Below are positions 8,773 through 23,228 of a DNA stretch of 64,000 bases, in pieces. Where the stretch lies: assembly GCA_003169695.1 (NCBI GenBank), contig PNAS01000017.1, positions 1 to 64,000 on the forward strand, in the 5' to 3' direction. The notes under the pieces were generated by a model, which was not told the DNA's origin, made no database searches, and saw nothing but the letters and a program-made list of their open reading frames with translations. The number at the start of each line of letters is the position of its first letter. The first letter of the stretch is position 1. The position numbers and the translations under genes are program-made. Source of the DNA: Spartobacteria bacterium. Lineage in GTDB: Bacteria > Verrucomicrobiota > Verrucomicrobiia > Chthoniobacterales > UBA10450.

Positions 8773-9654
8773 TTGAGTCCAGTGATTATTTTTCACGATC
8801 CGCACTGCATTAATTACTCCGCGCCCGGGCACCCAGAGCGGCCGGCGCGGATCACGTGCACTGTTCAGCTGCTGAAGGATCGGCACCCGGAGTGGGAATG
8901 GCGCGAGCCCCGGCTCGTTGATGAGACAACCGTCCTGCGCGCACATTCACGCAAGCATCTCGCTCAGATTCGCGACGCGACGCTCAATTTCGATGCGGAC
9001 ACGCCAGCTTATCCCGGGATCTTTGGACATGCCGCAAGGGCGGCGGGTGCGGCAGTGGACACGGCACGCGAGGCGATACGAGGGCGGCGCGCCTTCAGTT
9101 TGATGCGCCCACCGGGTCATCACGCGACGCGCGATCGCGCCATGGGGTTTTGTTATTTCAGCAACATCGCGCTCGCCACTCTCGATGCGCTCGCGCATGG
9201 CGCGGAGCGGGTGGCGATCTGGGATTTCGATGCGCACCATGGTAACGGGACCGAAGACATCGTCGCGAACAATCCGCGGATCGCGTTCGCCTCCATTCAC
9301 CAGTTTCCGGGCTATCCAGGAACCGGAACGCGCTCGTTTGACAACATTCACAATTTTCCGGTCGCACCGCGCACGCCGCGCTCGGTGCATGTCGCCGAGG
9401 TGCGCCGCGCGCTCGATCAGCTCGTGACATTCCAGCCCGACCTGCTCCTCGTTTCCGCGGGCTTCGATGCTTATGCGGGCGATCCGATCACCGGGATGAC
9501 ACTCGAACCGGAGGATTTCGCGACGTTCGGTGAGTGGCTCCGCGAAACGAATATTCCGGCGGGCGCGATTCTCGAAGGCGGTTACAGCGATGAATTACCG
9601 GAACTCATCGACGCCTTCTTGAGCAGGTGGATCGCGCGCTCCGTCGCGCGATGA
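8773..9654 (+). CDS. Histone deacetylase superfamily protein (arginase/deacetylase fold)
   Basis: A 293-residue zinc amidohydrolase of the HDAC/acetylpolyamine amidohydrolase superfamily. Bacterial members deacetylate acetylpolyamines or acetylated protein or small-molecule substrates. Seen motifs: HPERPARI near the N-terminus, PPGHHATRDRAMGFCYFSN with the catalytic His pair, DFDAHHGNGT carrying zinc-ligand Asp and His, and SAGFDAYAGDP carrying the second Asp ligand. The start is TTG 8773 (a GTG at 8782 is possible). The last nine codons (RWIARSVAR) and the stop region are supplied by a dispersed repeat (9625-9652), so the native C-terminus was probably overwritten. Substrate unknown. Confidence 0.88.
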   Translation: MSPVIIFHDPHCINYSAPGHPERPARITCTVQLLKDRHPEWEWREPRLVDETTVLRAHSRKHLAQIRDATLNFDADTPAYPGIFGHAARAAGAAVDTAREAIRGRRAFSLMRPPGHHATRDRAMGFCYFSNIALATLDALAHGAERVAIWDFDAHHGNGTEDIVANNPRIAFASIHQFPGYPGTGTRSFDNIHNFPVAPRTPRSVHVAEVRRALDQLVTFQPDLLLVSAGFDAYAGDPITGMTLEPEDFATFGEWLRETNIPAGAILEGGYSDELPELIDAFLSRWIARSVAR

Positions 9655-12846: not shown

Positions 12847-13545
12847 GGCCGCGTAGAGTATCCGGCCACACTGTTCGCAGCTGACGATCTCCTTGCCGTT
12901 CTTCACTCGGTGAGCCGTCTGCGTTGTTACTTTCATGTGACAACCGGTGCAAACTTCATGGTCGAGCGCAACGATGGCGGCGTCGCCTTTGCTTCCAAAG
13001 AGACGCTCGAACCTTCCGAGTAAGTCTTCATCAATTTTGCCGGCCAGCTCGGTTCGCTCGACCGTCAATTCGGTCAGGCGCGCATCGAGCGTTTTTCCCT
13101 TTTCTTCGAGATCGGCCATTTGGCGCGCGATCGACTCCCGCGACCCCGAAGCCTTCTTTTCCTCCGCGCTCACTTCGACTTTCAGCTTTTCAGCCTGATC
13201 CATCAGTTCGAGTTCCTGGTCTTCAATCAGCCGAATTTCCTTTTCGTAACGCTCAATCTCATTTCCCATCGCGCGGAATTCGTCATTCTTGCGCGTCTCA
13301 TATTGCTGGGTCTTCAAACGAGAAATGCTTTCCTGCCGCGTCCCCGCATCCAGCTCGAGCCTTTTGCGGTCCATCTCGAGATGCTGCGCTTTGTGCTTCA
13401 GCGCCGCGAGGGCAGCGACGTTGCCCGCCAGTTGCACCTCGAGATTCTGACGCTGCAACGGAAGGTTTTTTATCTCCGTCTGGATTTGTTTGATCTTTTG
13501 TTGCCGATCTTGAAGGACTAGCAACTGCTCCAGTTCCGCTTGCAC
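12844..13545 (-). CDS. Coiled-coil protein with C-terminal C4 zinc ribbon
   Basis: A 233-residue protein of the widespread bacterial 'C4-type zinc ribbon domain' family (CT398-like). Residues 1 to about 170 are a long charged coiled coil rich in Glu, Lys and Gln. The C-terminus has two CxxC knuckles: CTGC then, after a HRVKNGKEIV spacer, CEQC, ending GRILYAA. The chlamydial homologue was linked to sigma-54 and type III secretion, but a general function is not settled. Single gene converging on ychF. Confidence 0.85.
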   Translation of the reverse strand: MQAELEQLLVLQDRQQKIKQIQTEIKNLPLQRQNLEVQLAGNVAALAALKHKAQHLEMDRKRLELDAGTRQESISRLKTQQYETRKNDEFRAMGNEIERYEKEIRLIEDQELELMDQAEKLKVEVSAEEKKASGSRESIARQMADLEEKGKTLDARLTELTVERTELAGKIDEDLLGRFERLFGSKGDAAIVALDHEVCTGCHMKVTTQTAHRVKNGKEIVSCEQCGRILYAA

Positions 13546-13598
13546 GCGCGAATGTTATGGGCGGAGAGAAGCGTCGTCAATCGTCGGGAGTCAAGGAC

Positions 13599-13656
13599 CG
13601 GCGATCTCCAGATCGCCGTCAGGGAAACGGACGCTTTGGAGAGCGCCCCTCCTGCT
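13599..13656. repeat. Palindromic element at the nagZ-like 3' end
   Basis: Contains a perfect 9-bp-arm palindrome (CGGCGATCT-CC-AGATCGCCG) followed by GGACGCTTTGGAGAGCGCCCCTCC. Read on the minus strand, the layout (GCAGG, GGGCGCTCTCC, GCGTCCG, loop, CGG-GA-CT stem) matches the element inserted inside the same gene at 14133-14198. It abuts the gene's stop codon. Confidence 0.6.
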
Positions 13657-14815
13657 AATAGGTCTCAACCGGTGAGCGTTTCCCGTCTTCGGGGCTTCTC
13701 TTGCCGGCTTCTTCTTCGCCCAGCACCGCGACACGCAAATCCCATATGCCTCCGTCGATCTTCTTGAAGGCGGATTCCGAAAATGCATGCGGCGCCTGCA
13801 ACTTTGTTTTTGTGCGGGCAACACTCTCGAGGGCACGTTCGATCTGCGCCGGCGGCAGTTTGCCCAGCGTGCAATGAACTTCTTCGATCGACGGGACGCG
13901 GTGGCAAATCATTGCCAGATCGTTCCCGGCTTCGAGCGCGAGCCGAATAGTTTCCTCCAGCCCGTATTCATTCATGATGGCGCCCATATCGAGGTCGTCC
14001 GTCATGATCAGGCCGTCGAAGTGGAATTCGTCGCGCAGCAAATGCGTTACGACCTCCCGCGATAAGGAGGCGGGCCTTCTCACCGGGTTGAAGCACGGAT
14101 ACCAACCGTGACAAACCATCATGCAGTCGACCAGGCAGGGGCGGCTCTCCCCAGCCGTCCGATTATTCGACGGACGACTCGGAGAGTCGTCCCTGCCTAT
14201 GAAGGCGCGAAAGACCGCGAGCTCCTGCTCATTCAACTGCTCGCGCGAGCGTTCGATCTTGGGGAGACCATGATGAGCGTCAACAGTGGCGGCCGAGTAA
14301 CCGGGAAAGTGTTTGCCGCAGCTCAAAATCCCCTGCTCGCGCAAGGCGTCGTTGAACGCGCCAGCAAGTCCGACGACCTGTTCGGGGGTTTTGCCGTAAC
14401 AGCGACCGCGCAATGAATTATCGGCTTCATCGTCGAAGGAAATGTCGAGCACCGGACAGAGATCGAGATTGAAGCCGAAGATGCGCAGCAATTGACCGGT
14501 AATTTCCCCGTGGCGCCTAACAAGGGCAAGATCGTTTCGGTCGCGCAATTGCTGCGCATTTGGCGGCTCGTTCCCGATCAGCCTCAAGCGCGAAACGCGA
14601 CCGCCTTCCTGATCGATTGTGATGATGGGCTCGACTTCGCTGAGATCGCGCAGATCATCGATCAACTTACGGAGCTGCCGCGCGCTGTGAATGTTGCGGC
14701 CAAAAAGAATGAATCCGCCCGGTTGGACAAGATGAAATAATGCCGCGGTTTCCGAATCTAATTCGATCCCCGGAACTCCGGTAAGGATCAGTTGACCCAA
14801 GGAATCGCTCTTCAT
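13655..14815 (-). CDS. Glycoside hydrolase family 3 protein, NagZ-like beta-N-acetylhexosaminidase
   Basis: A 386-residue GH3 N-terminal-domain enzyme. NagZ members remove N-acetylglucosamine from anhydro-muropeptides during peptidoglycan recycling. Seen: PGGFILFGRN, IDQEGGRVSRL, the substrate loop KHFPGYSAATVDAHHGLP containing the catalytic Asp-His pair, and IMTDDLDMGAI containing the nucleophile Asp. Between RAFI and VDCMMVCHG, 22 extra residues (about 207-228, starting GRDDSPSRPS) are encoded by an in-frame 66-bp palindrome. The C-terminal tail beyond the barrel is unremarkable. If the insert forms a surface loop the enzyme may still be active. ATG start at 14815. Confidence 0.85.
   Translation of the reverse strand: MKSDSLGQLILTGVPGIELDSETAALFHLVQPGGFILFGRNIHSARQLRKLIDDLRDLSEVEPIITIDQEGGRVSRLRLIGNEPPNAQQLRDRNDLALVRRHGEITGQLLRIFGFNLDLCPVLDISFDDEADNSLRGRCYGKTPEQVVGLAGAFNDALREQGILSCGKHFPGYSAATVDAHHGLPKIERSREQLNEQELAVFRAFIGRDDSPSRPSNNRTAGESRPCLVDCMMVCHGWYPCFNPVRRPASLSREVVTHLLRDEFHFDGLIMTDDLDMGAIMNEYGLEETIRLALEAGNDLAMICHRVPSIEEVHCTLGKLPPAQIERALESVARTKTKLQAPHAFSESAFKKIDGGIWDLRVAVLGEEEAGKRSPEDGKRSPVETY
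14133..14198. repeat. 66-bp palindromic element inserted in frame inside a coding gene
   Basis: Arms beginning AGGCAGGGGCGGCTCTCC and ending GGAGAGTCGTCCCTGCCT pair across a short AT-rich centre near GATTATTCG. Its length is exactly 22 codons, so the host frame is kept. Removing the encoded residues restores normal family spacing between RAFI and the MMVCHG strand. A related element sits at the gene's 3' end (13599-13656). Confidence 0.85.
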
Positions 14816-23200: not shown

Positions 23201-23228
23201 AGGTGGATCGCGCGCTCCGTCGCGCGAT
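23201..23228. repeat. Third copy of the 28-bp dispersed repeat
   Basis: AGGTGGATCGCGCGCTCCGT continues into CGCGCGAT, identical to the arm at 9625-9652. It lies between tig (starts 23160, minus) and the hutI stop at 23233, again at a gene end. Here it is single rather than paired. Confidence 0.85.

Follow-up and report, generated by a model that had tools for sequence, protein, structure and literature searches.

The closest described relatives of the element considered here are the GTAG REPs, which, in the accessible portion of PMC3733652, are characterised by a short stem, by an organisation mostly as head-to-head dimers and by many copies, some of them within genes. According to the same portion, over half of the in-gene REP inserts code for 20-30 aa, the GTAG count is highest in Opitutus terrae, a verrucomicrobium with REPs inside genes, and the targets include uvrA, with the suggestion that the REPs sit in flexible loops or linkers; in one case, recB of two Xanthomonas, the REPs differ at roughly one position. 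For some GTAG REP families GYAG variants of the tag have been described. Another such system is that of the Rickettsia palindromic elements (RPEs), of which RPE-4, RPE-6 and RPE-7 are, in the available sections of PMC3767692, in-frame palindromes in solvent-exposed parts of proteins, with pheT and uvrC among the genes. In those sections different RPE groups are found at the same locus of Rickettsia orthologues, and the authors named two origins, a hot spot or a common ancestor insertion, leaning to the latter; since all orthologues examined there carry inserted DNA at those sites, gain is not separable from inheritance. The REPIN/RAYT systems treated in PMC8266576, as far as its accessible text goes, add the enzymes, those of IS200/IS605 type picking their sites by short guide pairing.

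The locus described here lies in the window, by which we mean the whole stretch of 64,000 nucleotides that was analysed, and belongs to a Verrucomicrobiota genome that is Chthoniobacterales-like. Its element, assigned to a family we call A, shares with the GTAG REP dimers, as partly accessible in PMC3733652, the tag as conserved in the family, the stem, the head-to-head dimers and the dispersal; whereas the REPs that this source reports in other genes of one class occupy different sites, here a loop is shared by at least two unrelated families in all five genes followed. The preliminary description likened the element to Rickettsia palindromes, which holds as an analogy, since RPEs behave alike and likewise insert in frame in a conserved protein, the site here being a predicted disordered loop; as to kind, however, tag, dimer architecture and dispersal fit a GTAG REP. 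From the RPEs, which were compared by description only (in part from PMC3767692), the element appears to differ in the conserved tag of its family, GTAG against CGTC, and differs in having bare sister alleles and dispersed source families. With REPIN/RAYT, as far as PMC8266576 is accessible, it shares the inverted-REP dimers and the presence of RAYT-like genes in the genome, here without a RAYT beside family A. In-frame REPs and same-locus Rickettsia elements are thus already known; what is added are the bare sister alleles, which help to separate recurrent insertion from one old insertion. A literature search on REPs in Verrucomicrobia or Udaeobacter and on recurrent sites, judged from its listings and with most subscription journals outside its range, gave no account of the pattern beyond PMC3733652 and PMC3767692.

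The palindrome in the nagZ-like gene

The features of the locus are the following.

13655..14815, minus strand: nagZ-like gene of a GH3 beta-N-acetylhexosaminidase, an uninterrupted frame of 386 aa with its stop codon within the span
14132..14200, minus strand: codons of residues 206-228, the lengthened nagZ loop, with 3 codons here in bare relatives
14133..14198, minus strand: REP dimer of family A, head-to-head, REPIN-like, in frame (66-bp inverted repeat, fold, matches to pattern and covariance model)
14171..14198, minus strand: first REP arm, AGGCAGGGACGACTCTCCGAGTCGTCCG, with a 9-bp stem, a 3-nt loop and GCAG replacing the tag GTAG
14133..14161, plus strand: second REP arm, inverted, more decayed (20.1 bits, E 0.0016 over the window)
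13599..13653, minus strand: possible decayed REP dimer just past the nagZ stop codon (11.4 bits, E 0.54 over the window)

The 386-aa product matches the GH3 Pfam model (E 8.8e-54) and reaches 181.5 bits against NCBIfam NF003740, below the cut-off of 207; K168, H169, F170, P171, D179 and H181, which we take to be the NagZ catalytic motif, are among the invariant columns in an alignment of 49 homologues. Its predicted structure (mean pLDDT 86.5) has the NagZ fold, with Amuc_2109 of Akkermansia as the top solved structure match and the NagZ proteins of Vibrio, Salmonella, Burkholderia and Pseudomonas within the best 50. Among named genomes, those whose nagZ genes are most similar come from metagenome-assembled Spartobacteria, Chthoniobacterales and Verrucomicrobia. 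Outside the loop, dN/dS values of 0.060 and 0.075 against two bare relatives (G003 and G002) and of 0.082 against G007 point to purifying selection on the gene.

Within this intact frame the palindrome is present as originally described, its arms (14133-14150 and 14181-14198) being 18 nt each and 89% complementary, and the folds of the two strands reach z values of -5.0 and -7.3, equalled by none of 200 shuffles on either strand. The first arm scores 43.9 bits (E 2.3e-10 over the window), the arm itself belonging to the set from which the model was built, and the tag reads GCAG at both dimer ends. An RNA family as the identity of the element was rejected, Rfam giving no match up to E 1 over 13500-14400. 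The best explanation is a non-autonomous REP dimer inserted in nagZ and translated as protein sequence. Between the helix-end residue F205 and V229 there are 23 residues (206-228) as against 3 in bare alleles, so that the removal of 22 residues, said in the preliminary description to restore the family spacing, leaves it near-normal, the net gain being 20 codons and not 22. The insert is predicted to be disordered, lying between helix 198-206 and strand 231-234, with residues 209-224 at pLDDT <50. The relative supposed to lie at the gene's 3' end, 13599-13653, resembles a decayed dimer but falls short on its E value, and its folds (z -1.2 and -1.1) likewise fail; it was not retained.

Family A and the Y1 genes of this genome

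Searched with a pattern derived from the earliest family A matches, up to 2 mismatches being allowed, the genome yields 58 arm matches, against 3 for the reversed pattern; after four matches without a hairpin were dropped, the remainder, grouped by eye, gave 34 loci, of which 29 were taken as two-armed, with lengths of 62-121 bp. Other copies had been anticipated, as had a mobile-looking hairpin that stays translatable, and both expectations are borne out by these 34 loci and by the in-frame reading in nagZ. With 150 of 2987 candidates scored, the covariance model returns at least 65 matches whose E value is no higher than 1. In the consensus arm, AGGTAGGGACGnnTCTCCGAnnCGTCCG, the T of the tag is present at 46 of the 58 dimer ends, which makes GTAG the conserved tag. 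In a set of 30 distinct arms selected among the matches, 91.5% of the alignment cells of the stem are paired, and changes on both sides of the stem occur in 32 cells, where shuffles give 8.8 and none of 500 reaches as many; six of the nine stem pairs have changed on both sides, a number equalled in 36 of 500 shuffles. The stem is under a pairing constraint, with compensatory changes. The flanks of the 58 ends carry only a two-base signal, C at -1 (42/58) before A (49/58), and a universal target motif was rejected, there being nothing past this C-A at the element edge.

It had also been proposed to count how many copies keep a length divisible by three. The proportion among two-armed elements (11 of 29) equals chance, and element length was dropped as a criterion; the frame is preserved through the net change per site. 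Nor did the preliminary description foresee that only four of the 34 loci were placed inside genes, namely nagZ, uvrA and pheT, by homologue alignment, and the linker of a TPR protein, by eye; the other 30, for which no coding homology on both sides was shown, were assessed from how the open frames are arranged. In the lolA-like, trpD and cystathionine-gamma-synthase-like genes a family A copy stands before the matched domain or where it begins, and the LMF1-type gene of this genome is a fifth coding case, with a repeat of family D. Cover by an open frame alone was abandoned as an in-gene criterion: 14 of 22 elements in the G007 stretches examined and 6 of 20 in those of G019 lie in open frames of at least 120 aa, many of them without known homology.

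The genome encodes three Y1 transposase proteins, which score 82.4, 74.6 and 49.2 against NF047646 (REP-associated transposase), the first over and the others under the cut-off of 80. No family A repeats stand beside the three genes in the flanks examined, 75 to 1428 nt per side, and neither of the two RAYT-like proteins (L008 and L010) adjoins such repeats in the DNA examined. Three palindromes with a GTGG tag (AGGTGGAACGCGTTG...), spaced at about 155 bp, lie just upstream of the L010 gene, and some 1.2 kb off stands a GTAG-tagged hairpin of different sequence. Separately, the C-terminal stretch of the Y1 transposase at L009:865-1878 matches DnaA (TIGR00362, E 3.7e-7, far below the model's cut-off). 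In the window itself an identical 22-nt palindrome follows AGGTGG at 9631-9652 and 23207-23228, and these copies perhaps represent a second, GTGG-tagged REP family.

The nagZ loop and four further loops in relatives

The 37 family genomes, less one without a match (G018) and two cut before the loop (G006 and G035), leave 34 in which the nagZ loop is readable; many are incomplete MAGs, and the family letters were assigned by eye. Family A is found in five (G000, G012, G019, G024, G036), family B in three (G020, G030, G032), family C in two (G007, G023) and a short, possibly decayed insert in four (G005, G010, G028, G034), while the remaining 20 are bare, with exactly three residues from the helix-end residue to VDSMM or similar. 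The orthologue alignment called for in the preliminary description accordingly lacks the 22-residue stretch in many rows, 74 aligned rows, outgroups too, being bare with exactly 3 loop residues. Named genomes add B inserts in L105, L106, L107, L109 (whose row duplicates L107) and L115, and one of unclear kind in L117. The re-use of one loop by unrelated families had not been foreseen, the three being unlike in stem, loop and spacer; within one genus, at one nucleotide, G000 carries A, G007 carries C, and G001, G002, G003 and G004 are bare. The tag begins exactly 3 nt past the helix-end F codon in 10 of 10 family genomes and in L105, L106, L107, L115 and L117.

In at least nine of the 10 insert-bearing genomes, among the matches listed, the insert's own family occurs elsewhere in the genome: A in all five of its hosts, B in G020, G030 and G032, and for G007 an identical copy of the C arm. 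Of the named genomes with B inserts, G059 (L106) and G060 (L107) also have B elsewhere, while for G023, L105, L115 and L117 the matches listed include no further copy. Decayed inserts fold weakly (z -0.9 in G019, +0.3 in G024, +1.1 in G028 and +0.4 in G034). V or I precedes VD in inserted alleles of several clades, a position that is mostly charged or polar in bare alleles. In G012 and G036 (L077 and L076) a second palindrome is seemingly nested, in frame, in the loop of the first REP. By direct reading, family B in the form of G030, G059 and G060 would, if flipped, place a TGA in the nagZ frame.

Four other genes were followed, with UvrA, PheT and ArgJ over their NCBIfam cut-offs and LMF1 over its Pfam cut-off, and in every one of the five, nagZ included, two or more unrelated families share the loop, with bare alleles between. 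As a single genome had been the starting point for each of nagZ, uvrA, pheT and argJ, their selection did not presuppose recurrence; the LMF1-type gene had been noticed in two genomes. In the pheT linker, 35 genomes are readable (G027 gave no match and in G030 the loop is absent), with A in 2, C in 3, F in 8, G in 3, H in 2, I in 1 and none in 16. Judged by eye, A, C and part of F begin at one start point, there being at least two overall; at the first, the translation of the A and F arms gives VGTPLR and VGQPLR, against TGKKLR or TQKPLR in bare alleles, a likeness which, by eye, we read as possible selection among frames and variants. Five pheT loci with flagged stops were checked, of which four have the stop just upstream of the start codon and the fifth has none. 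In uvrA, with G024 excluded for an N in the loop, the 36 readable loops hold A in 4, C in 1, F in 2, other longer inserts in 13 and short loops in 16; nine of the 13 (G002, G003, G006, G011, G016, G018, G032, G033 and G035) are NAQRPTSN-like and derive from a short CAACGTT-type repeat, apparently a small repeat of another class that shares this loop. For the LMF1-type gene and argJ the best 30 loci per gene were used. The former gave 27 readable loops, some with half elements (C 5, D 3, J 5, other palindromes 6, none or unclassified 8), the C insert of G005 differing in frame and place from those of G007 and G019; argJ, with the loops of G004 and G006 left out, gave 12, with D in G002 and G007 and an unrelated palindrome in G017.

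In four of the loops the density of near-perfect hairpins is about 8 to 23 times that in the remainder of the genes, and in argJ 1.8 times. Per kb, the loop and the rest have 5.3 and 0.51 in nagZ, 4.1 and 0.48 in uvrA, 10.1 and 0.44 in pheT, 5.1 and 0.58 in the LMF1-type gene and 1.6 and 0.89 in argJ, the detector having missed some loops labelled by eye (such as the family A insert in uvrA of G000) and counted G005 and G016 uvrA, which are not labelled REP. Dispersal was seen for families A to D; F, G and J occur almost only at these loops in the DNA examined. The frame of the tag was discarded as evidence, since an open gene cannot read it as TAG; only the choice between the two other frames is informative, nagZ using one for 8 of 8 matched REP tags and pheT the other for 10 of 10, while the LMF1-type gene divides 4 to 1.

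On trees built with the loops excluded, inserts and bare loops alternate. In a FastTree phylogeny of 92 nagZ rows, rooted on seven, inserted rows stand beside bare ones in the pairings L082 with L136, L115 with L128, L106 with L114 and L080/L081 with L086, and recognisable REPs require 10 events if only gains are allowed. A three-gene tree of 45 rows, made by a quick method with several forks open and long outgroup branches flagged, gives as the fewest family changes 9 for nagZ (38 rows with a state), 13 for uvrA (44) and 14 for pheT (30), the last counted without G006, G013, G015, G017 and G033, so that one F and one H row are missing.

Probable recurrent insertion and its alternatives

Sequence comparison directly shows the identity of the repeats, the dispersal of families A to D, the open gene with its conserved residues, the in-frame reading, a loop predicted to be disordered, the bare alleles and the differing families at the same loop in different genomes. 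The most probable reading, though with appreciable room for doubt, is that REP insertion is frequent, that insertions in coding sequence are mostly lost, and that a small number of permissive loops are occupied anew by the family active at the time. A RAYT transposase of the Y1/HUH class, as has been proposed for other GTAG REPs, would act on single-stranded hairpins and move the REPs; most insertions in coding sequence would disappear, and the nagZ helix-strand loop, the pheT linker and the uvrA, argJ and LMF1-type loops, tolerating roughly 8 to 30 extra residues, would be struck repeatedly. The protein would then filter the survivors, the tag being unreadable as an in-frame TAG and the peptide having to suit its neighbours.

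Against recolonisation of permissive loops stands the start nucleotide and frame in nagZ, which are more uniform than tolerance alone predicts. Glycine is favoured at helix ends, and the single start nucleotide may reflect a target preference, shared descent or a Gly wanted at the helix end, just as V or I before VD could be due to shared descent or to a structural echo. The lack of a RAYT beside family A in the flanks examined, the occurrence of F, G and J almost only at these loops in the DNA examined, labels given by eye, the small enrichment in argJ and the incomplete MAGs likewise weigh against it.

The shared junction would follow naturally if each loop had received one old insertion, which was inherited and then repeatedly deleted or rewritten, by recombination or transposase-driven exchange among REP families with common GGTAGGG...CCCTACC ends. 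Such a history, which we consider unlikely, would account for the identical 5' junction of all recognisable nagZ inserts, the common start of A, C and part of F in pheT (by eye) and the V or I common to many inserted nagZ alleles, and a common origin is what the authors of PMC3767692, in its accessible part, favoured for RPE-4/6/7. It is opposed by the bare nagZ alleles of exactly 3 residues, alike in outgroups (74 rows), by the 18 losses that a single gain entails as against 10 gains, by the differing frame and place of the LMF1-type C insert of G005 and by the second start point in pheT.

A further, rather improbable account holds that the transposase prefers the DNA of these loops, recurrence then stemming from target choice and not from protein tolerance. 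Three families at the same nagZ nucleotide would fit it, as would the short guide pairing of IS200/IS605-type enzymes (PMC8266576, in part), but by eye nagZ, pheT and uvrA have no evident motif in common to the left of the insertion, the alignment of 74 bare nagZ loops reveals nothing more than codon conservation, and the 58 family A ends bear only their C-A. It seems highly improbable that the inserts persist through a benefit of the peptide or of the mRNA hairpin, such as pausing translation or serving as a regulatory loop. In favour of this, both of the two differences between the nagZ inserts of G012 and G036 are synonymous, yet two sites are too few for inferring selection, the peptides vary by family and many close relatives lack the insert.

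Beyond the recolonisation of tolerant loops by active families, we raise, as a speculation with little probability, that permissive loops are re-usable docking sites, where a RAYT-like enzyme excises one REP precisely and sets another at the same nucleotide; were this true, several parasitic hairpin families would keep rewriting the same housekeeping-protein loops over evolutionary time. Whether such loci are hot spots or the relics of one old insertion was named as an open question for Rickettsia (PMC3767692, accessible part), and the present group, where empty alleles and several unrelated families are available across dozens of genomes, makes it testable by comparison. It is as if certain protein loops served as safe landing pads for unrelated palindromes, such that mobile-looking DNA would repeatedly supply conserved proteins, for instance those of pheT and uvrA, with new sequence in their loops, and the recurrent inserts may provide a natural map of insertion tolerance.
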